38,153 nt of DNA. Origin: Wenzhouxiangella sp. Its GTDB lineage: Bacteria > Pseudomonadota > Gammaproteobacteria > Xanthomonadales > Wenzhouxiangellaceae. The DNA is taken from assembly GCA_007694055.1 (NCBI GenBank), contig RECK01000158.1, positions 1-38,153 on the forward strand, in the 5' to 3' direction. Position numbers and translations under genes: made by a program. Each line of letters starts with the position of its first letter. Position 1 is the first letter of the stretch. Below are positions 28,135-38,153 of this stretch, one piece after another. Under the pieces are notes generated by a model that was not told the DNA's origin, did no database searches, and saw nothing but the letters and a program-made list of their open reading frames with translations.

Positions 28135-30051
28135 TTAATGGGGGGGCTCGCCCAAGTTTAGTTCAACCAGCTTGAAGTCCCCTTTCGCGAGCTGCTGTTC
28201 CATGGCGTTGGGATCCAGGCTCGATTGATTGGCATCTGGCCACAGGCCAAGAGCGCGCTGGCGTCCCTGCCGCTTGGCCTTGTACAGCAGCTGATCGGCG
28301 ACGATGAATGCCGGCTCCCAGTCTTCCTGGCCGGAATGAGCCTGGCTCTTCTCCAAGGGTGCAAAGCCCACGCTGGCGCTGATCGGCACACTGGCGCCGC
28401 GGTTGTCCACGATCTCGACCGCAGCGATTCCCTTGATCAGTTCGTCGGCCCGTTGTTCAACCTCGCTTCGGTTCAGGCGCGGCAGCAACAGACAGAATTC
28501 TTCGCCGCCCCAGCGGCCCACCTCCCCCCTGTGGTTCTTGGCGAATGCCGCCAGGAAGTGGCTGACGGCGAGCAGGGCACGGTCGCCCACGTCGTGTCCG
28601 AAAGAGTCATTGATGCGCTTGAAGTGGTCGAGATCGACCAGGAACAGGACTGAGTACCGATCTGCCGGTCGCGCGTTGTCGAAGCGCAGCAGTGCGGTCA
28701 TGTAGCGCCGGTTGGGCAGGCCGGTCAGTGAGTCGGTACGGCTGATCATGGCCAGCTTTCGATTGTTGGCTCGCTGCCACAAAAAGATTCCCAATGCAGC
28801 CAGGGCGAGCACCAGCAGCGCGGCGGTTGTCAGTCGCTGCAGTAGTCGTTGCTGGTCCATGGTCATGGCCTGAACCTCGCGTTCGCGCCTGAGCTGCTCC
28901 AGTTCGACTGCCTGGCGCTGCAGACCGAGCTCGGCTTCCAGCTCCGTCAGGCGCTGGTCCTGCTGTTCTCTGATGTTTTGAGTCTGCCGCGCCAACAGCG
29001 TCTGGTGCAAGTCCAGTGCCCGTTCCAGATCGCCGATCGCGGCCAGCACATCGACCATCGTCTTTAGCGAGGCGGACACAGAAAGATATGCCTGGGAGCG
29101 TTCGGCCAGAGCCAGAGCGGTTTCTGCCAGTTCAAGGGCCTCGTCCAGAGAGCCTCGGGCCATTTGCAGGCGGGCCATGTCTCGTAACAGAGCGGCTCGC
29201 TCGGCCGGGTTGTCGAATTCCTGGTGCAGGGCGCTGGAGCGTTCAAACAGTTCAAGCGCCTTGTCGTCTTCTCCAACAAGGTGCTTGAGACCGCCAATCA
29301 CGGCCAGCAGGCTGGCCAGGCGGACTTCCATACCCGGGGCTTCCAGTTGTGACACCAGCGGCTGGAGCACTTCCAGCGCTTCCTGGTGCTGTCCCTGGTA
29401 GCGCAGGGTCAGTCCCAGGTTGTAGTGCAGCGGCAGCATTTGACGCAGGTCGCCATCAGCGCCGGGGAGGGCGATGGAGCGCTGATGATTGGCAAGCGCG
29501 CGCTCGTGCATGCCGGCATCGGCCTGATACATCGCCAGGCTCCCCAGGATAAAGGGGATCAGCTCACTCAGCTGTTCGCGCTCGGCCAGGGCCATCGCTT
29601 CTTCGACGACGGCCATGGCTGCCGTGTTGTCGCTGGCACGGTGGAATACGCCGCTGCCCCGGATCAACAGCCGGGCCCGTATTCCAGGGTCTCCGACGCG
29701 CAGTACTTCGGCCCGGTGCTGGTTTTCCATCAGGGCAATGGCATCCTGCAAGCGGCCGATGACGGCCAGGCTGTGGCCCTTGCAGTTGAGCGCACGAGCC
29801 CGCGAAACGGGGTTGGTCACGGTCGAGTCGCCGAGCACGCGTTCGGCAACCGCGATGGCTGCGTTCGGGTCGTTGTGCTCCAGCATTTCGCACTGGCCAA
29901 GTAACGCCTCCACTGACTCGGCCCAGGCCGGTCCGTTGCCGGCCATGAGCATCAGAACCAGCACGCCGATTGAGGTCGCCGAGCTGAAACGTTTGATGAG
30001 TTCAGTGAGTGCGCCCGTCCGCTGTTGGTTGGCTCGAAGGCGTGCGCGCAT
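28135..30051 (-). CDS. TPR-sensor diguanylate cyclase (GGDEF) with periplasmic tetratricopeptide domain
   Basis: A 638-residue protein from the ATG at 30051. It has a signal-like N terminus cut after PAWA (residue 44), then a long run of tetratricopeptide-like helical repeats (about 50-370). Next come a Gln/Glu/Arg-rich coiled coil, one membrane helix (LTTAALLVLALAALGIFLW), and a cytoplasmic GGDEF domain from about 432 to 600. The active-site motif is GGEEF at 515-519 in RWGGEEF, an accepted active variant, and LVDLDHFKRINDSFGHDVGD supplies metal and substrate contacts. The RxxD inhibitory site five residues upstream is missing (HRGEV instead). It probably makes cyclic di-GMP in response to a periplasmic cue. 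The frame is open to 30156, but the start at 30051 gives the cleaner signal sequence. Confidence 0.88.
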   Translation of the reverse strand: MRARLRANQQRTGALTELIKRFSSATSIGVLVLMLMAGNGPAWAESVEALLGQCEMLEHNDPNAAIAVAERVLGDSTVTNPVSRARALNCKGHSLAVIGRLQDAIALMENQHRAEVLRVGDPGIRARLLIRGSGVFHRASDNTAAMAVVEEAMALAEREQLSELIPFILGSLAMYQADAGMHERALANHQRSIALPGADGDLRQMLPLHYNLGLTLRYQGQHQEALEVLQPLVSQLEAPGMEVRLASLLAVIGGLKHLVGEDDKALELFERSSALHQEFDNPAERAALLRDMARLQMARGSLDEALELAETALALAERSQAYLSVSASLKTMVDVLAAIGDLERALDLHQTLLARQTQNIREQQDQRLTELEAELGLQRQAVELEQLRREREVQAMTMDQQRLLQRLTTAALLVLALAALGIFLWQRANNRKLAMISRTDSLTGLPNRRYMTALLRFDNARPADRYSVLFLVDLDHFKRINDSFGHDVGDRALLAVSHFLAAFAKNHRGEVGRWGGEEFCLLLPRLNRSEVEQRADELIKGIAAVEIVDNRGASVPISASVGFAPLEKSQAHSGQEDWEPAFIVADQLLYKAKRQGRQRALGLWPDANQSSLDPNAMEQQLAKGDFKLVELNLGEPPH

Positions 30052-30165
30052 GAGTGGGGGTTCAGTGATCAATCCACGAGTGTATATTTTTTTGCTGAGA
30101 TCCGCTGCGCCGGGTCGTCTGACTTGCCCGGCCATGTAGAATGCGCAACGGATCATCCGCCGTTA
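30052..30165. promoter_or_regulatory. Divergent upstream region of the diguanylate cyclase gene and truB
   Basis: The 114 bases contain an AT-rich patch TGTATATTTTTTT (30081-30093) and, reading towards truB, TGTAGAAT, whose TAGAAT (30137-30142) resembles an extended -10 element. Reading towards the cyclase gene, TATACA (30086-30081) is a possible -10. Neither has a convincing -35 at 16-18 bases, so the exact promoters are uncertain. Confidence 0.25.
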
Positions 30166-31077
30166 ATGCGCTCAGACATGAATCCTGCTGCTCCCCCCCC
30201 AATAGTCTCGGGCATTCTGCTGCTCGACAAACCATCCGGCCTGACTTCCAACGCAGTATTGGGCAGGGCGAAACGCATACTGGCGACCAAAAAGGCCGGG
30301 CATACCGGCACGCTGGACCCCATGGCATCGGGTTTGCTGGTGCTTTGTTTCGGCGAGGCAACAAAAGTATCGGGTTTTTTGCTCGATGCCGACAAGGCCT
30401 ACGAAGCCGAGGCCACGCTGGGTGTGACGACCGATAGCGAGGACGCCGAGGGCGAGGTGATCGAGCGCCGGGAGGTGCCGCCCTTGACCAGAGACGATGT
30501 CGAGTCGGTACTGGGGAGTTTCCGCGGACCCATCATGCAAGTGCCGCCCATGCATTCGGCGCTGAAATACAAGGGCCAGCGTCTGTACGAACTGGCACGG
30601 CGCGGCGAGGAGGTGGAGCGTCCCGCCCGAGCCATTACCATCCACGAGCTGAGCCTGACCGGGTTCGAGTCGCCTCGCTTGCAACTGACCGTTACCTGCA
30701 CCAAGGGCACCTACATTCGATCGCTGGTGCGTGATATAGGTGAAGCACTGGGCTGCGGGGCCCACCTGAGCGCGCTGCGCCGGACCCTGAGCGCGCCATT
30801 TGCCCTGGCCAATGCGCATACCCTGGATGAGTTGGACGGACTTGATGTGGAGGCTGCCAGGGCCCTGCTGCTGCCGGCCGATGTCGCGCTGGCCCATTTG
30901 CCTGGGCTGGATCTTGATCCAGAACAGGCCACCCGGCTGTGCCAGGGTCAGAAGCTGTCCGGCCTGGCTGCGATTGCGCCCGGACTGGTCCGGGTCTACG
31001 GCGACGGTGCGTTTCTGGGTATCGGTGAAACGGATGGTTGCGGGCGGCTGAAGGCGAAGCGCTTGCTTGCGACCTGA
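30166..31077 (+). CDS. truB: tRNA pseudouridine-55 synthase TruB
   Basis: A 303-residue enzyme that makes the universal pseudouridine 55 in the T loop of tRNAs. The N-terminal GILLLDKPSGLTSN, the catalytic Asp51 in AGHTGTLDPMASG, MQVPPMHSALKYKGQRLYELARRGEEVERPAR, CTKGTYIRSLVRDIGEALG and a C-terminal PUA-like region (LVRVYGDGAFLGIGETDG) are all in place. ATG at 30166 or 30178 are both plausible starts; the family has 12-20 residues before GxLLLDKP. In most relatives truB lies between rbfA and rpsO; neither is beside it here. It converges on tsaB with 30 bases between stops. Confidence 0.95.
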   Translation: MRSDMNPAAPPPIVSGILLLDKPSGLTSNAVLGRAKRILATKKAGHTGTLDPMASGLLVLCFGEATKVSGFLLDADKAYEAEATLGVTTDSEDAEGEVIERREVPPLTRDDVESVLGSFRGPIMQVPPMHSALKYKGQRLYELARRGEEVERPARAITIHELSLTGFESPRLQLTVTCTKGTYIRSLVRDIGEALGCGAHLSALRRTLSAPFALANAHTLDELDGLDVEAARALLLPADVALAHLPGLDLDPEQATRLCQGQKLSGLAAIAPGLVRVYGDGAFLGIGETDGCGRLKAKRLLAT

Positions 31078-31107
31078 GGCAATACTTGTGCCGGCACCAG
31101 TGATTCG

Positions 31108-31764
31108 TCAGCCGGTGACCTGGTTGCGCAGATAGACCGGTTCGAGCCGGTGGCCCGGAACCGCTTCGACATCATCGGCCAGAAGCAGCAAGGCCTCGGC
31201 ATCGGGCCAGGCTTCAATCGCAGTACCCTGGTTTTCCAGCCCGGTGATGTCCTTGAGCTGTTCCCGGTAGCGAACGGCGCCGGGACCGGCCGCAGTCCAG
31301 GGGCCCGGAGCGGGGAGCTTCAGCTGTTCCGGGCTGGCCAGGAACTCCGGCCCCAGGCGTTGGCAGTGTTTGCCTGTGCATTGAAACCAGGCGCCGTATA
31401 CCTCGTTCATGCGCGCATCCAGCAACGCCAGCAGCTGCGGGGCAGGGCTGTGTTGCCGAATGCGCGCGGCCAGCGCGTCCAGGGAGGAAACCGGCCGCAC
31501 CGGCAGATCGTGGGCCAGGGCGATGCCCTGCACCACACTCAAGCCGATACGCAGGCTGGTGAATCCCCCGGGGCCGCGACTGACCACGAGTTCGTCCAGG
31601 TATTCGAAACCTGTCCCGGCCTCGGCCAGCAGTTCATCGACCCAGGGCAGGATCAGGCGGGCGTGCGCGCGGGCCTCAACGATGCGGCGGCTCAGCACTG
31701 TCGCGTCGAATTGCAGCGCAACCGAACAGGCTTCGGTCGAAGTTTCTATGGCCAGACGGATCAT
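31108..31764 (-). CDS. tsaB: tRNA threonylcarbamoyladenosine biosynthesis protein TsaB
   Basis: A 218-residue ASKHA-fold protein that pairs with TsaD to place threonylcarbamoyl on A37 of ANN-decoding tRNAs. The N terminus LAIETSTEACSVAL, HARLILPWVDELL and SRGPGGFTSLRIGLSVVQGIAL are diagnostic; the length is slightly under the E. coli protein. It is the last gene of the minus-strand group mrcB-lipoprotein-yoaA-tsaB. The yoaA-tsaB neighbourhood is shared with E. coli. The gap to yoaA is 37 bases. Confidence 0.94.
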   Translation of the reverse strand: MIRLAIETSTEACSVALQFDATVLSRRIVEARAHARLILPWVDELLAEAGTGFEYLDELVVSRGPGGFTSLRIGLSVVQGIALAHDLPVRPVSSLDALAARIRQHSPAPQLLALLDARMNEVYGAWFQCTGKHCQRLGPEFLASPEQLKLPAPGPWTAAGPGAVRYREQLKDITGLENQGTAIEAWPDAEALLLLADDVEAVPGHRLEPVYLRNQVTG

Positions 31765-31801
31765 GGGGGGAGTTTACGGGAAGCGGGCAGGGAGAGCGGC
31801 G

Positions 31802-33721
31802 CTATTGGAGTTCGTGGCGTTGGCGCAGGAAAGCCGCGGCTTCGGAGCCATCGTTCACCCGGGTCATGGGGGGCAGGCTCTTGATGAACAGGCCACCGTA
31901 GGCCTTGGTCGTGAGCCGGGGGTCGCCCAGGACCAGCACGCCGAAGTCACGGTCCTGGCGGATCAGGCGGCCGGCGCCCTGCTTCAGGGCCAGCACGGCC
32001 TGGGGCAGCTGGACCGTGGCAAACGGATTCTCCCCGGCTTCGCGCACGGCCTTGAGCGTGGCCTCCAGCACCGGGTCGTCGGGCGCGGCAAAGGGCAGCT
32101 TGTCGATGATTACCAGGCTCAGGTCGCGACCGGGCACATCGACGCCTTCCCAGAAACTGGCCGCACCCAGCAACAGGCTGCGCGGTGTCTCGCGAAAGCG
32201 CTGGAGCAGGATCTGGCGGGGCGCTTCCTCCTGAACCAGCAGGTTGAAGTCGGTGTGCCCGCGCAACCATTCGGCGGCCCGGGACAGCGCACGGTGGGCG
32301 GTGAACAGCAGGAAGGCGCGTCCGGCATTGGCCCGAAGCAGGGGCAGGACTTGGGTCAGCAAGGCCTCCGTATGGGCCGGGTCGCGGGGCTCAGGCAGCC
32401 GGTCGGGTATCCACAGTCGGGTCTGGTTCGGGTAGTCGAAGGGGCTGTCGACCACCAGTTGGGCCGCTTCCTCCAGGCCGAGACGGCGGGTAAAGTGATC
32501 GAAGCGCCGACCCACGGCCAGGGTCGCCGAAGTCATGATCCAGGGTGCCGGGTTGTTGGCGCGCAGTTCCTTCAGCGGGGTGGCAACATCCAGCGGGGTC
32601 AGATTCAGGCTGAAGCGCCCGCGTCGATGACTGAACCAGCGAACATAGCCATCCTGTCCGGCCAGAAAGGCGGTCAGACCATCCAGCATCATTACCGCCC
32701 GGTCGGCACAGTTCGACAATTCCCGGGTCTGCTCGGCCAGGGGAGCCAGCGCCGAATTCAGTGCCTGGAGCGCCCGGCCCAGGGTGGCGAACGTTTCCCG
32801 ACGATTGGCAATCCGGCCAAAGTCGCCCCTGGGCGGCAGGTCGACACAGGCCGAAACGGCCTGGTCCAGGGCCGACTTGAGTTGTTCGATGGGTTCGCGC
32901 AGCAGGGCCAGCGCCCCGCTGGCCTCGGCGCAGGCGGCGAGGCTGTCTCGACCCAGTTCCTTGAGCTGCCAGGCGCTGACCCCGCGTGAAAAAAAGCGCA
33001 TGGCCGTGTCCGGCACCTGGTGGGCCTCGTCGATGATGACGGCCTCGGCGCCGGGCAGGACCTCGCCGAAACCGGTGTGTTTGAGCGCCATGTCGGCGAA
33101 CAGCAGGTGATGGTTGACCACCACCAGGTCAGCGTCCTGGGCGCGCCGACGGGCCTGGGCCAGCGGACAGTCCTTCAGTTTGGGACAGTCGCTGCCCAGG
33201 CAGTTGTCCTGGGTAGAGGTGACCAGCGGCCAGACCGGAGAGCGCTCGCTGATGGTTTCGAGTTCGGAAATCTCGCCACTGCCGGTATGCCGGGCCCAGC
33301 GCTGGACCAGGCGCAGCTCCTCGCCCAGTTCGCCAGCGCTGAGGCGGTCGTCACCCAGGTGGACTTCGAGGCGCTGCGGACAAAGGTAATTGCTGCGACC
33401 CTTGAGCAGGGCAACCTTGCATTCGACCCCGGTGGCCTTCAGCGCCAGGGGCAGGTCGCGCTTGAACAGCTGGTCTTGCAGGTTGAGCGTGCCGGTCGAC
33501 AGGATGCTGCGACGGCCCCTGAGCAGGGCGGGTACCAGGTAGGCCAGGGTCTTGCCGGTGCCGGTCGCTGCCTCGGCGACCAGGTCGGTACCCGTTTCCA
33601 GGCAGGAGTCAATGGCCCGGGCCAGGCTGACCTGGCCGGGGCGGGGTCGGTAGCCGTCGAGCAGGGTCGAAAGCGGACCGTCGGCGGCAAAGCAGGCGGT
33701 CAATTCCGCGGAGTCAGTCAC
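31802..33721 (-). CDS. yoaA: DinG/YoaA-family ATP-dependent DNA helicase
   Basis: A 639-residue superfamily 2, XPD-like iron-sulfur helicase. Motif I is EAATGTGKT at residues 50-58, and the four-iron cluster is framed by Cys114 (NYLCPQRLE), Cys174, Cys179 and Cys185 (DNCLGSDCPKLKDCP). The Walker B box is DEAH at 231-234. The C-terminal helicase motifs appear in FLLFTAHRAL, GAASFWEGVDVPGRDLSLVIIDKLPF and GAGRLIRQDRDFGVL. E. coli YoaA unwinds DNA and works with the polymerase subunit HolC (chi) in repair of blocked forks. tsaB next door supports YoaA rather than DinG. Confidence 0.92.
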   Translation of the reverse strand: MTDSAELTACFAADGPLSTLLDGYRPRPGQVSLARAIDSCLETGTDLVAEAATGTGKTLAYLVPALLRGRRSILSTGTLNLQDQLFKRDLPLALKATGVECKVALLKGRSNYLCPQRLEVHLGDDRLSAGELGEELRLVQRWARHTGSGEISELETISERSPVWPLVTSTQDNCLGSDCPKLKDCPLAQARRRAQDADLVVVNHHLLFADMALKHTGFGEVLPGAEAVIIDEAHQVPDTAMRFFSRGVSAWQLKELGRDSLAACAEASGALALLREPIEQLKSALDQAVSACVDLPPRGDFGRIANRRETFATLGRALQALNSALAPLAEQTRELSNCADRAVMMLDGLTAFLAGQDGYVRWFSHRRGRFSLNLTPLDVATPLKELRANNPAPWIMTSATLAVGRRFDHFTRRLGLEEAAQLVVDSPFDYPNQTRLWIPDRLPEPRDPAHTEALLTQVLPLLRANAGRAFLLFTAHRALSRAAEWLRGHTDFNLLVQEEAPRQILLQRFRETPRSLLLGAASFWEGVDVPGRDLSLVIIDKLPFAAPDDPVLEATLKAVREAGENPFATVQLPQAVLALKQGAGRLIRQDRDFGVLVLGDPRLTTKAYGGLFIKSLPPMTRVNDGSEAAAFLRQRHELQ

Positions 33722-33739
33722 GTCACTGGTGATCCTTCC

Positions 33740-34246
33740 CTAAAAACGGGGCGGCGGTTCAACCCGGCAGTCCTGCATGCGTTCCCGGGCGCGATGGGCC
33801 TCTTCGTGCCGACCGGTGCGCTCGCGCGCCAGTGCCATGGTGCGCCAGTTGCGCTGGCACAGCTCGCCTACCCTGGGTCCGACGTCGAATGAACGACTGG
33901 CATTCGCTTCGGCCTGCTCCCAATCGCCCTGGGCCAGACGAACCTCGGCCATGTTCTGCAAAAGCTCCGGATCCCGCGGTTCAATGCGGATGGCTCTTTC
34001 CAGCAGCATGGCTGCACGGTCGAGATCGCCATCACGTTCGGCTTGCTCGGCTGCCGTGATCAGCTCATCGACAGCCGGGTTGCGCAGCGGGAATACCTGC
34101 AGTCCGCGGGCTGCTTCGGGTTCGGGTTCGCTGGCCCGTGCCTGTTCAACGGGACTGCGGTCCTCCACCGGCGCGGGTGGCTGGGTCGCGCATGCGACCA
34201 GCAGCAGCGAGCAGATCGGAACAAGAGAAAGGTGGATCCTGGCCAT
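33740..34246 (-). CDS. TPR lipoprotein, LpoP-like candidate activator of PBP1b
   Basis: A 168-residue lipoprotein. The signal peptide ends in the lipobox LVAC (Cys19), followed by a Pro/Glu-rich linker (about 20-50). The mature domain has two tetratricopeptide repeats (about 57-90 and 91-124) and a third helical pair containing Cys130 and Cys160, which could form a disulfide. It starts 28 bases after the mrcB stop and lies in the same direction. In Pseudomonas aeruginosa the PBP1b activator LpoP is a TPR-containing outer-membrane lipoprotein encoded next to PBP1b, so the same role is a good inference here. Similar small TPR lipoproteins of unknown role also exist. Confidence 0.75.
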   Translation of the reverse strand: MARIHLSLVPICSLLLVACATQPPAPVEDRSPVEQARASEPEPEAARGLQVFPLRNPAVDELITAAEQAERDGDLDRAAMLLERAIRIEPRDPELLQNMAEVRLAQGDWEQAEANASRSFDVGPRVGELCQRNWRTMALARERTGRHEEAHRARERMQDCRVEPPPRF

Positions 34247-34274
34247 GCTATCGGTTTCTCGGCTGGTTCAAGAG

Positions 34275-36746
34275 TCAGGGTCGCCGCCACCAGGCGCGCC
34301 TGGCTGCGGATTCGGTCCGCGCATCCATGCACGGAGAGTACAAGCCGGGCTGGCTATCGGCAACGAAGGGCAGGGCCCTGGCATTGCTGCAATCCTCGCT
34401 GGCCAGCAACGGTGACGGCCAGTCGATCCAGTACCATTCGATGCCTTCCGGCCAGCTGCGTCCAGTGGCACTGACCGGCAGTCCGGAAAAGAGTTCGGCC
34501 CAGACCGGCAGTGCCGTGGCCGAACCGCTGATGCCGGCCGGGGCATTGTCATCGCGTCCGGTCCAGACCACTCCGAGCCAATCTTGAGTATATCCCACGA
34601 ACCAGGCATCCCTGCGGTCGTTGGTGGTGCCGGTCTTGCCACGCGCGCCTATGTCTGCCGGCAGGCGCCAGGACAGGCTGCGGGCCGTGCCCTCGGTGAC
34701 GGCGTGGCGCAGGGCGAAATCGAGCAAGGCCAGCGCCTCCCGATCACGAATCGGCCGCATGCGCATGGGGTAGCGCGCGATTTCGCTGCCCCGGGCATCG
34801 GTGACCTGGTTGATTGCCCGCAACGGGGTGCTGTAACCCTCGGCTGCCAGGGGTTGATAGAGCTGGGCAACCTGCAGTGGCGTCAGGTCGAGCGCGCCGA
34901 GAAACGCCGACGGGTGGGGGTCACTGCCGGGCTCCACGCCGAGCTGGCGCAGCAGACGGAACAGCCCGCTCAGGCCCAGCTCCTGGCCGAGTGCGACCGT
35001 GGCCTGGTTGTAGCTGAAGGCCAGGGCATCCATCAGCGGCACCTGGCCATGGCTGGTGCCGTCGTAGTTTCGTGGCTGCCAGGGTTCCTGGCCGGCAACA
35101 CGGATACTCAGCGGCTCGTCATGCAAGGTGGTGGCCAGGTGAAACCGCTCGGGCTGGGCCAGGGCAATCAGGTAGACAAAGGGCTTGATTACCGAGCCCA
35201 CCTGGCGTCGGGCGTCGAGGGCGCGGTTGAAGCCGCGACGGCCAGGCTGACGATCGCCAACCAGGGCCCGGATTTCGCCGGATGTGGGCTCCAGCAGGAT
35301 GATGGCGCCTTGTAGTTCGCCGGGTTGCCGTTCGACTTGGCTGAGGCCCTGGCTCAGTGCTCGTTCCGCCTGGCGCTGGGCCGAAGGGGACAGGGTCGTA
35401 TGAATCCTCAGGCCGGTTCCGCTCAAGTCGCGTTCGCGGTAATCACGGCGCAGCTGGCGGGCGACCAGCTCAAGGAAATCTCCGTAGCGCTGGCTGCGCT
35501 GACCGCGCTGGATATTGACATCCAGCGGTCGCCCCGTGCTGTCGCCATGGCTGGCCAGGTCGATCAGGCCGGTTTCCAGAAAGATGTCCAGGACCCGATC
35601 GCGTCGGTCCAGTGCGCGTTGCGGGTTGCGCACGGGGTGGTACCAGGAGGCACCCCGGACCATGCCGACCAGAAGTGCGATCTGCTCGGGCGCCAGGGCC
35701 TGGACCGGCAAGCCAAAGTAATGCTCGCTGGCGCGGCCGAATCCGTGGATGGCGCGCGGGCCGTCCTGGCCCAGGTAAACCTCGTTCAGATAGGCCTCGA
35801 GGATGGCGGCCTTGCCATAGCGTCGCTCCAGGCTGATGGCCATGATCGCTTCGTTGATCTTGCGCACCAGGCTGCGGTCTGGGCTCAGGAACAGGTTCTT
35901 GACCAGCTGCTGGGTGATGGTGGATCCACCCTGGACGACCTGGCCATGGCGCAGGTTCGTCCAGGCCGCTCGAATCATGCCGCGCGGGTCGATGCCGTGA
36001 TGATGGTTGAAACTGCGGTCCTCGACGGCCTGGATGCCGGCGACCAGCAGCGGCGGAAAATCCACCAGCGCCACCAGGGTGCGATCATTGTCGTCGAGGG
36101 GCAGCAGGGCACCGAGCTCGGCTGGCGGTACGCGCACCAGGCCGCTGCCCGGTGCACTGATGCGCTGCAGGTGGCGCACGGCATCCTGTTCGATCGATAA
36201 GCTGAGCCGGACTGCCGGTTCCGGGCCGTCGCCGTAAACGAATCCCGGCAGATGGAGATCCAGCTGCTGCCCGCTCTGGCGGAACCGGCCCGGCTGGGCG
36301 GGGTCGCCGCTGCGCAGACCGGCAGCGTCCAGCTCGACCAGCATGTCATCCAGGCTGATCTTCAGCCCGTCGTAGAGCTCCAGTGGCCGGGCGTAGACCC
36401 GGCTGTTCTGGGTCCACTGGCGCTCGGCGAAACGCATGCCCGCTTCCCGATCCAGCCACCACACCCACGGACCGGCCAGGCCGAGGGTCAGGCCGGCGGA
36501 GAACAGCAGCAAGGTAATAAAAAGACGACGCAGCACGGGCGTTATTGTAGGTGCAAACTCATCCGCTACGGGGCTTATCCAGTCCTTGGCCCGGTCCCAA
36601 GCCGCCGCGGTCCATGTCAAACCTGTCTCGGGTTTTCGATCAATCCACCGTTTCCAGCAATGAACCTCGTTTTCCGGGCCCATCAGGTCGCGGTCAATCC
36701 AACTGGCCAAGCTATAATGGGGGATTGGCCCTGAACTAGCTGGCAT
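34275..36746 (-). CDS. mrcB: Penicillin-binding protein 1B (bifunctional peptidoglycan synthase)
   Basis: An 823-residue class A PBP that polymerises lipid II and cross-links peptides. A short cytoplasmic tail is followed by a membrane helix (about 74-97) and a UB2H-type domain (about 105-190), which marks PBP1B rather than PBP1A. The GT51 domain carries Glu242 in VEDRSFNHHHGID and GGSTITQQLVKN. The transpeptidase has Ser518 in SVIKP, SYN at 578-580 and KTG at 704-706. The C-terminal tail has a Cys pair (786, 806). The ATG at 36746 would place the start over a TATAAT box serving the divergent gene; an internal ATG at 36683 (residue 22) is an alternative with no better ribosome binding site. 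Confidence 0.93.
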   Translation of the reverse strand: MPASSGPIPHYSLASWIDRDLMGPENEVHCWKRWIDRKPETGLTWTAAAWDRAKDWISPVADEFAPTITPVLRRLFITLLLFSAGLTLGLAGPWVWWLDREAGMRFAERQWTQNSRVYARPLELYDGLKISLDDMLVELDAAGLRSGDPAQPGRFRQSGQQLDLHLPGFVYGDGPEPAVRLSLSIEQDAVRHLQRISAPGSGLVRVPPAELGALLPLDDNDRTLVALVDFPPLLVAGIQAVEDRSFNHHHGIDPRGMIRAAWTNLRHGQVVQGGSTITQQLVKNLFLSPDRSLVRKINEAIMAISLERRYGKAAILEAYLNEVYLGQDGPRAIHGFGRASEHYFGLPVQALAPEQIALLVGMVRGASWYHPVRNPQRALDRRDRVLDIFLETGLIDLASHGDSTGRPLDVNIQRGQRSQRYGDFLELVARQLRRDYRERDLSGTGLRIHTTLSPSAQRQAERALSQGLSQVERQPGELQGAIILLEPTSGEIRALVGDRQPGRRGFNRALDARRQVGSVIKPFVYLIALAQPERFHLATTLHDEPLSIRVAGQEPWQPRNYDGTSHGQVPLMDALAFSYNQATVALGQELGLSGLFRLLRQLGVEPGSDPHPSAFLGALDLTPLQVAQLYQPLAAEGYSTPLRAINQVTDARGSEIARYPMRMRPIRDREALALLDFALRHAVTEGTARSLSWRLPADIGARGKTGTTNDRRDAWFVGYTQDWLGVVWTGRDDNAPAGISGSATALPVWAELFSGLPVSATGRSWPEGIEWYWIDWPSPLLASEDCSNARALPFVADSQPGLYSPCMDARTESAARRAWWRRP
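36713..36718 (+). promoter_or_regulatory. Consensus -10 box upstream of the glycosyltransferase gene
   Basis: A perfect TATAAT stands 73 bases before the ATG at 36791, giving a predicted start of transcription near 36725. No good -35 is found at 16-18 bases upstream (the sequence there reads GCGGTC), so it would depend on an activator or tolerate a poor -35. It lies within the first codons of mrcB if that gene starts at 36746. Confidence 0.35.
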
Positions 36747-36790
36747 ACCTTGCGTTTGCCGCTCCCGGTTTCGCTCAAGGCACCACCCTT

Positions 36791-38153
36791 ATGTCTACTC
36801 TTGCTTCCAGCGATCGCTCATGCGCGAATGTCATACCGCAGATCATCTGCAGGCCTGACCGGTACGGTCGCCTTGATTCGGTCTGGCTGGCGGCGGTACG
36901 CAAGTCATTTCCCGACGCGCAATTGTTTGCCCGGCCGGCCCAAGCCGGCGATCATGACCTTGCGTCCTTGCCGAGTGAGCGTGCATCGCTGACATCCTTG
37001 CTGGCAGCCATGCCCAACCGGGATCGCAATCCCGTTCTCGTTCTGGCCAGCGGTGTGTTCCCGGCGCCCAACATGCTCGAACGTCTGGCCGGAATGCTGA
37101 ACCATCCGGGCTGCCCGGATTTGACCTGGTTGCCCAATAATCGCGATGCTGACCTTAACCCTGCGGCCGGCTTGAATGAGGATGATGTTCCCGACGCGCT
37201 GGATTCGCTGGTAGCCGCCTGCGGCGCCCAGTGCTGGACTCGTTTCCAGCGGCAAGACGGCAGTGCCCTGCTACTGCGCGCCGGTGTCGACATGGCGGGC
37301 CGTGACCTGAACGAGATCGAGCAGGCGGTTGTCGACACCATGTGCCTGCATGATCCGAGCTTGCCGCGCAACCATGGAAAGTCGGGAACGCCAATCCAGC
37401 AGGCAGCCTTCGGGCAGGTCAGGCAGCGGCTGCAGAGCCTGCTGCAAGAGCAGGTGGATAGCCTGGCTTACATCGGATTCGACCCGCGCCCGGTCACGCT
37501 GCATATCACCCACGCCTGGGGCGGTGGCATCGCGCGCTGGATTCGCGATCAGTGCGAGCACGATGAGCAGGGGCTGCACCTGGTACTGACAGCGGCCGGA
37601 GAACCTGATGGCCAGGAGCATGGACAGCGCCTGTGCCTTTACGCACATGGCCCTGATCGTACTCGGCTGGCTGAATGGGTGCTGGAGCCTCCCATCGCCG
37701 ACACCGCCAGCCGTCATGCCCACTACGCCGAGCTGCTCGACGCCGTTCTTGCCCGCTACCGGGTCAGCCGCGTCCTGGTTTCCTCGTTGATCGGACACAG
37801 TCTGGACTGTTTGCGCACCGGTCTGCCCACCGGCCAGGTCCTGCACGATTTTTATCCGGCTTCCCCGGTTCTGGATATCGATCCGCAACGCTTCGTGGAC
37901 GAGGGCATCGGCTTCGACGTCGCTGCTGCCCTGTCCGGCGCTGGGCGTGCCTTTCAGTTCGCCAACCGATCGGTGTCCCACTGGCAGCATGTTCGGGCAA
38001 GCTGGCTGGAGACAGTTATCGAGCAGGGGACCCGACTGATTGCGCCGACTCGACACGTGGCGGCACGCTGGTCTCACCTTTTCCCCGGAAGTCTGGATGG
38101 TCGGATCGAGGTCATTGCCCACGGTCAGCCGCCGTCAAACCATGAAATGCAGG
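36791..38153 (+). CDS. Probable glycosyltransferase, incomplete at the right edge
   Basis: From the ATG at 36791 the frame is open without a stop through base 38153, giving 454 codons so far; the frame is closed upstream by a TAG at 36737. AAGG at 36777-36780 may serve as ribosome binding site. Residues about 20-190 resemble a nucleotide-sugar transferase-like N-terminal domain (VLVLASGVFPAPNMLERL, then TWLPNNRDADLNP). From about 236, HITHAWGGGIARWIRD resembles the glycine-rich start of GT4-type glycosyltransferases, followed by VSSLIGHSLDCLRTGLP, LHDFYPASPVLD (about 351) and RLIAPTRHVAARW. This two-part layout suggests a surface-polysaccharide glycosyltransferase. The UDP-sugar-binding C-terminal half would lie beyond the window. 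The specific sugar is unknown. Confidence 0.7.
   Translation, partial: MSTLASSDRSCANVIPQIICRPDRYGRLDSVWLAAVRKSFPDAQLFARPAQAGDHDLASLPSERASLTSLLAAMPNRDRNPVLVLASGVFPAPNMLERLAGMLNHPGCPDLTWLPNNRDADLNPAAGLNEDDVPDALDSLVAACGAQCWTRFQRQDGSALLLRAGVDMAGRDLNEIEQAVVDTMCLHDPSLPRNHGKSGTPIQQAAFGQVRQRLQSLLQEQVDSLAYIGFDPRPVTLHITHAWGGGIARWIRDQCEHDEQGLHLVLTAAGEPDGQEHGQRLCLYAHGPDRTRLAEWVLEPPIADTASRHAHYAELLDAVLARYRVSRVLVSSLIGHSLDCLRTGLPTGQVLHDFYPASPVLDIDPQRFVDEGIGFDVAAALSGAGRAFQFANRSVSHWQHVRASWLETVIEQGTRLIAPTRHVAARWSHLFPGSLDGRIEVIAHGQPPSNHEMQ

Follow-up and report, generated by a model that had tools for sequence, protein, structure and literature searches.

An LpoP-family lipoprotein encoded behind PBP1b in Wenzhouxiangella, its cysteine pair and its persistence in lineages without detected PBP1b

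The mrcB–lpoP locus and the architecture of its lipoprotein

Four minus-strand genes, mrcB, lpoP, yoaA and tsaB, follow one another in the window (the whole stretch of DNA analysed, 38,153 nucleotides, which is contig C6 of a 4.15-Mb Wenzhouxiangella sp. draft genome made up of 459 contigs). The gene under study, lpoP (33740–34246), starts with ATG and encodes a 168-residue LpoP-family lipoprotein predicted to activate PBP1b. Ahead of it lies mrcB (34275–36746), the product of which has GT51, transpeptidase and UB2H domains and scores 749 bits against the PBP_1b profile TIGR02071 (cut-off 717.75). The UB2H domain (residues 124–197; 36156–36377, minus strand), the predicted docking site of LpoP, is recognized by Pfam (PF14814, E 7.6e-13). 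The true start of mrcB is probably further inside than the listed ATG (36500–36746, minus strand), because the matches of most relatives to its translation (P0002) begin only at about residue 60–83. Behind lpoP are yoaA (31802–33721), encoding a DNA repair helicase (YoaA NF053712, score 783, cut-off 680), and tsaB (31108–31764), encoding a t6A37 tRNA modification subunit (TsaB TIGR03725, score 178, cut-off 69.3). The successive intergenic gaps are 28, 18 and 37 bases; the first agrees with the spacing given in the initial annotation, mrcB ending at 34275 and lpoP beginning at 34246.

A promoter and terminator scan of 30900–37200 found no promoter-like sites and no terminator-like sites on the coding strand; its sole terminator-like site lies at 37019 on the opposite strand, a lower count than shuffled sequence gives. 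The absence of such sites is weak evidence that mrcB, lpoP, yoaA and tsaB form one transcript, in which yoaA and tsaB most probably ride along as passengers. The initial annotation had suggested that the transcript runs on into these two genes and linked cell-wall synthesis to DNA repair and tRNA modification. The gene order stood, being widely conserved (see below); co-transcription we infer, and the tie of lpoP to repair and tRNA modification is one of conserved gene order only. Nothing pairing yoaA with mrcB was found in the open-access literature searched.

Elsewhere in the window, 28135–30156 (minus strand) encodes a predicted diguanylate cyclase with its GGDEF domain at residues 469–635 and a long part ahead of it; the plus-strand open reading frame beside it is a putative truB. 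The plus strand at 1595–26161 carries rng, yhdP, tldD and pmbA, followed by genes of respiratory complex I (NuoD, F, G, L and M tested).

The lipoprotein has three parts, all encoded on the minus strand. The signal peptide (residues 1–19; 34190–34246) ends in the lipobox L16-V17-A18-C19 (LVAC), and Cys19 is conserved in at least 90% of 44 LpoPs, in keeping with the lipobox first proposed. A tether of about 37 residues (residues 20–56; 34079–34189), mostly without predicted secondary structure, connects it to a domain of six helices forming three TPRs (residues 57–160; 33767–34078), which is predicted to bind UB2H. Pfam recognizes TPR_14 in two stretches (E 9e-9). An AlphaFold2 model built from 44 aligned homologues has a mean pLDDT of 87.8, rising to 94–98 per block of ten between residues 61 and 160, and groups the helices into three pairs (57–71 and 75–88, 93–106 and 109–122, 128–143 and 147–160); the two methods together bear out the earlier count of two to three repeats. 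Model confidence in the tether is below that in the TPR domain, except for a short helix at 32–37.

We considered whether a short tether sets this protein apart and rejected the idea: the median is 37 residues (range 29–51) in the 75 LpoPs from PBP1b-bearing genomes of the order (Xanthomonadales) in which a lipobox was found, and 42 (range 15–122) in 20 LpoPs of the class (Gammaproteobacteria), the longest, 122, belonging to a P. aeruginosa-like LpoP (G438). Two LpoPs of family f136 (L160 in G311 and L212 in G224) carry a C-terminal extension of about 75–80 residues beyond the TPR domain.

Kinship with LpoP and linkage with PBP1b

The structure of P. aeruginosa LpoP (6w5q) matches residues 60–156 of the window protein in a single ungapped stretch of 97 residues (E 8.3e-15, 58.4 bits). 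By comparison, the three designed TPR proteins with alignments shown reach at most 19 bits per stretch, and the best natural TPR protein among the matches listed (7kw7) reaches 31.9 bits. When the AlphaFold2 model was searched with Foldseek, the seven best matches were all 6w5q chains (the first with a target TM of 0.94 and 41% identity). VIA-align likewise placed 6w5q on top (Z 18.7, 106 residues, rmsd 1.2), ahead of a runner-up entry at 16.8 with 16% identity. The homology to P. aeruginosa LpoP thus exceeds that of a generic TPR, and the likeness to LpoP first suggested from the sequence is upheld: by sequence and modelled structure, the lpoP product is an LpoP, beyond a mere TPR protein, and a further member of the known LpoP family. 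A homologue of LpoB was considered and rejected, as a search of the window's genome with the LpoB profile PF13036 at E 0.001 gave no hit; LpoB is not among the Pfam matches of P0001.

Of the 101 order genomes, the window's own counted, 93 have an LpoP match, none with an internal stop; the lpoP reading frame is therefore not a chance one. Conservation of the mrcB–lipoprotein gene pair, which the initial annotation asked to be checked, is supported at both taxonomic levels, and neither of the two refuting outcomes that it named (no homology to LpoP beyond generic TPR, or homologues usually unlinked to mrcB) was observed. In 68 of the 82 order genomes with both genes, lpoP lies at most 1,000 bases downstream of mrcB on the same strand; G001 makes a 69th case at 1065 bases, a distance due to its partial mrcB match. 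The two are not adjacent in family f11 (6/6), in 4/7 of f9 and in three genomes of family f1 (G031, G040 and G041), and contig ends may account for part of this. All six f11 genomes (G052, G061, G069, G076, G088 and G100) have mrcB, lpoP and yoaA on separate contigs and keep the cysteine pair described below. One genome of family f2 (G090, locus L042; 100% complete, 3 contigs) has its mrcB and yoaA matches 191 bases apart and no lpoP match at E 1e-5; here LpoP has apparently been lost while PBP1b stays.

Across the class, we scored 377 genomes at least 95% complete, calling LpoP by the profile of alignment A1 at E 1e-8 and PBP1b by TIGR02071 at E < 1e-100. LpoP was found in 216 genomes and PBP1b in 223. 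The two occur together in 203; 13 have LpoP but no PBP1b, 20 have PBP1b but no LpoP, and 141 have neither (odds ratio 110, Fisher p 1.8e-64, not corrected for kinship). Four of the PBP1b calls are less certain (G171, G270, G434 and G348, E 1e-131 to 1e-179). Linkage outside the order was scored among the matches listed, of which 136 genomes with LpoP and 146 with PBP1b were used, 100 of them with both; lpoP lies at most 1,500 bases behind mrcB in 86 of these 100. Within the order, yoaA follows lpoP within 1,500 bases in 79 of the 92 genomes with both. The order lpoP–yoaA–tsaB also recurs outside Xanthomonadales (L147, L149, L151 and L152, judged by eye from protein starts) and is therefore an old neighbourhood.

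The LpoP discovery paper is reportedly that of Greene et al. 2018. The window protein shares with P. aeruginosa LpoP the lipobox, a tether, a three-TPR domain of equal length and fold, an E-R-x-x-R motif at the helix 2–3 junction and a PBP1b partner with UB2H; in genomes with P. aeruginosa-like LpoPs (G230 and G438), lpoP is just downstream of mrcB, as in the window. P. aeruginosa LpoP differs in having no cysteine at position 130, its last residue, 259, aligning with model residue 160, and in its tether of 127 residues (PMC7267771), compared with 37 here. Unlike in the window, yoaA was not seen by eye beside lpoP in G230 (L164). P. aeruginosa LpoP binds to UB2H; it increases the glycosyltransferase rate 4.5-fold and transpeptidation products 2-fold (PMC7267771). 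A. baumannii LpoP was picked out by its gene's location next to that of PBP1B and by 30% identity, and was then shown to activate the enzyme (PMC7943195); it is likewise a lipoprotein, with two recognized TPRs. The window gene resembles these two in position, fold and homology. E. coli LpoB is also an outer-membrane lipoprotein activator that docks on UB2H, but consists of a β-sheet flanked by helices (PMC7267771), and its profile is unmatched in the window's genome. CpoB and LpoA are, like LpoP, TPR-containing regulators of class A PBPs (PMC7267771); they are separate genes, the LpoA match (PF04348) lying on contig C406 of the window's genome.

By analogy with the two tested homologues, from P. 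aeruginosa and A. baumannii, it is very likely that the window LpoP activates the adjoining PBP1b. The lipobox, tether, homologous three-TPR domain, linkage to mrcB, UB2H-bearing PBP1b and lack of an LpoB match are all consistent with such an activator. The protein might instead be a generic TPR lipoprotein that adjoins mrcB by chance and leaves PBP1b unaffected. TPR domains are widespread, the product receives only sub-threshold TPR names from NCBIfam, and the HMMER summed scores of three designed multi-repeat TPR proteins exceed that of LpoP. However, the LpoP score comes from one stretch, with the designed proteins and the best natural one listed well below it; 6w5q heads the structure lists, and lpoP co-occurs and is linked with mrcB. 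We rejected this reading on the 6w5q sequence match and the structure comparisons, and consider it improbable. Still less credible, and very improbable in our view, is a brake in the manner of CpoB, in which the TPR lipoprotein would damp PBP1b instead of activating it: the LpoP TPR domain is similar in fold to that of CpoB (PMC7267771), but in both sequence and structure the window protein is closest to LpoP, and E. coli cpoB sits with tol-pal, not with mrcB (PMC7267771). Against activation itself stand the non-adjacency of mrcB and lpoP in f11 and much of f9, and the persistence of LpoP where PBP1b is not detected, which PBP1b activation alone does not explain.

The cysteine pair and the predicted PBP1b contact

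The lpoP product has three cysteines other than Cys19: Cys12 in the signal peptide, Cys130 (codon 33857–33859, minus strand) and Cys160 (codon 33767–33769, minus strand), the proposed disulfide partner of Cys130. Apart from the lipidated Cys19, the mature chain has no cysteines but the latter two. The initial annotation had singled them out as a pair in the third helical pair, where the AlphaFold2 model indeed places them, and they proved invariant: both are present in 92 of the 92 order LpoPs examined and in none of 32 outside the order. The 92 are drawn from 93, one 62-residue match at a contig edge (G031) being left out; 91 show Cys160 in the alignment, and one (L198 in G071), which reaches Cys160 past an insertion, was scored by its tail. 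The 32 are drawn from 210 class LpoPs outside the order, and most of the 32 end ahead of the Cys160 position. By comparison, the mean column identity of alignment A1, whose 44 rows all come from within the order, is 47%.

The two helices that carry the pair are consecutive and antiparallel. In their hairpin register, the residue numbers of the cysteines sum to the same value as those of the helix limits that flank the turn (130 + 160 = 143 + 147; AlphaFold2 helix limits), and Cys130 and Cys160 should therefore lie opposite one another where the hairpin opens. On its conservation and this geometry, which derives from the modelled helix limits, the pair probably forms a structural disulfide. A single origin suffices to explain the pair on the unrooted LpoP tree, and the joint occurrence of both cysteines is for that reason not independent proof of a bond. 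The order-wide pair goes beyond what was known of LpoP; a paper in the open-access literature searched that mentions both LpoP and disulfides treats the Pseudomonas and Acinetobacter proteins in its LpoP passage.

The UB2H interface of P. aeruginosa LpoP was mapped by NMR to the junction of helices 2 and 3 (PMC7267771). At this junction the window protein has a charged patch, E83-R84-x-x-R87-x-x-x-R91 (33974–34000, minus strand), with all four charged residues present, which is a candidate PBP1b contact. Among LpoPs from PBP1b-bearing genomes, E83-R84-R87 is exact in 24 of 25 from the class, in 35 of 35 from the window's own family (f1) and in 8 of 8 from f8, and in just 2 of 38 from the other PBP1b-bearing families of the order. 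Where PBP1b was not detected, it is exact in 0 of 4 from f1 (a single clade), in 0 of 7 from the rest of the order and in 2 of 7 outside it (G132 and G162). The pattern is thus what one would expect of a contact that erodes once its partner is gone, yet the patch is not required everywhere. Loss of the patch was also tried as a marker of PBP1b loss; it holds within f1 (35/35 versus 0/4) and fails order-wide (2/38), and is a hint only. In the third TPR, most groups retain R132-N133-W134, whether or not PBP1b was detected in them, and f2, f3 and f9 are among the exceptions; W134 occupies the usual TPR tryptophan position.

We propose that LpoP would be anchored in the outer membrane by its lipid, with the tether of about 37 residues letting the TPR domain reach through the peptidoglycan. 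The domain would dock on the UB2H domain of PBP1b, near the glycosyltransferase domain, by way of its helix 2–helix 3 junction, and the docked LpoP would speed up both glycan polymerization and cross-linking by PBP1b. A disulfide between Cys130 and Cys160, where the ends of the last two helices face each other, would pin the third TPR. No experiment on the window protein or on any Xanthomonadales LpoP was found in the open-access literature searched; one paper there that mentions both LpoP and Xanthomonas names Xanthomonas only for a CpoB structure. With this analysis, the LpoP–PBP1b pair known by experiment from Pseudomonas and Acinetobacter reaches Xanthomonadales and more than half of the class-wide genome sample. 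The analysis also suggests that P. aeruginosa LpoP, whose tether is very long and which lacks the cysteine pair, is atypical of the family.

LpoP in lineages without detected PBP1b

PBP1b was not found by profile or protein search in 11 of the 93 LpoP-bearing genomes of the order: all four of family f5, both of f7, four of the window's own genus (G004, G007, G021 and G023) and G072. The lpoP frame is open in the PBP1b-less genomes of f5, f7 and the Wenzhouxiangella subclade. A gene other than mrcB lies upstream of lpoP in f5 (G046, G057 and G066), f7 (G048), G007, G021 and G023, and wherever the neighbourhood was read, lpoP heads the series lpoP–yoaA–tsaB. Outside the order, the clearer cases among the matches listed are f126 (four genomes), f138 (two genomes), G132 and G170, with f126 and f138 sister groups on the LpoP tree. 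Some calls carry limits: in G072 and G162, lpoP lies at a contig end and the absence of PBP1b may be an assembly gap; G004 is 63% complete; LpoP matches in G146, G191 and G285 (E 2e-9 to 9e-9) and in G174 are weak and may be generic TPRs; and G303 and G430 were counted by profile match alone.

Four close pairs lacking PBP1b gave dN/dS ratios of 0.03, 0.10, 0.04 and 0.07 over the last 120 codons of lpoP (dS > 1 in one pair), similar to the 0.02–0.15 of nine PBP1b-bearing pairs (two with dS > 1). Two more distant PBP1b-less pairs gave saturation in one case and 0.37 in the other. On the LpoP tree, the PBP1b-less label has to change 8 times, and supported branches force 6 of these changes, with G162 and G072 counted; the tree is weak (119 columns, unrooted, 123 of 124 rows, being those with more than 80 filled columns). 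Intact LpoP is thus present without detectable PBP1b in at least four lineages, and in the close pairs that were tested it evolves under purifying selection. The ERxxR patch is missing from these four lineages, as it is from several families with PBP1b.

The 24 genomes with LpoP only (11 from the order and 13 from the class) were also searched for other GT51 enzymes. Exactly one GT51 match was found in 15 of them (G007, G023, G046, G048, G057, G058 and G073; seven genomes of f126, f138 and G132; and G285). G066 has a second in a 350-residue frame, G021 has two pieces of one gene and G004 has none; the remaining genomes have two or three matches. The GT51 enzymes of G007, G023, G046, G048, G066 and G073 are PBP1a-like with an OB domain, and UB2H was not found in these six at E 0.01. 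LpoA was present in 26 of 26 genomes tested, and on that ground we rejected the notion that LpoP replaces a missing LpoA in the PBP1b-less genomes.

The survival of LpoP without PBP1b hints at a second role. It is possible, if tentative, that the LpoPs of the class have a PBP1b-independent function, with PBP1a most likely or another periplasmic client, beside the activation of PBP1b. In favour are the open frames of f5, f7 and the Wenzhouxiangella subclade (G007, G021, G023 and probably G004), the cases outside the order among the matches listed, the single GT51 enzyme of 15 LpoP-only genomes and its PBP1a nature in the six read, the place of lpoP at the head of its neighbourhood, the low dN/dS of the close pairs and the repeated, mostly forced changes on the tree. 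However, LpoA, the activator of PBP1a, leaves no evident vacancy; 141 of the 154 class genomes without PBP1b also lack LpoP; draft gaps may explain some absences, as with the contig-end genes of G072 and G162; and the distant pairs gave 0.37 or saturation. We regard as somewhat unlikely the narrower proposal that a second periplasmic partner, PBP1a or another wall enzyme, would be bound by way of the third TPR, with redox control a possibility in Xanthomonadales; in this view the ERxxR motif has mostly been shed, and the third TPR and, in Xanthomonadales, the Cys130–Cys160 pair have been kept. Activation of PBP1b remains our preferred reading for the window LpoP, and the PBP1b-less lineages offer a natural experiment, in which the residues lost may serve PBP1b and those kept something else.

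Some PBP1b-less genomes with LpoP also match the LpoB profile PF13036, strongly in G372, G430 (f126) and G162 (E 1.8e-33 to 4.9e-39), and weakly, above the cut-off, in the f5 and f7 genomes G046, G048, G057, G058, G066 and G073 (E 7e-7 to 3.5e-5).
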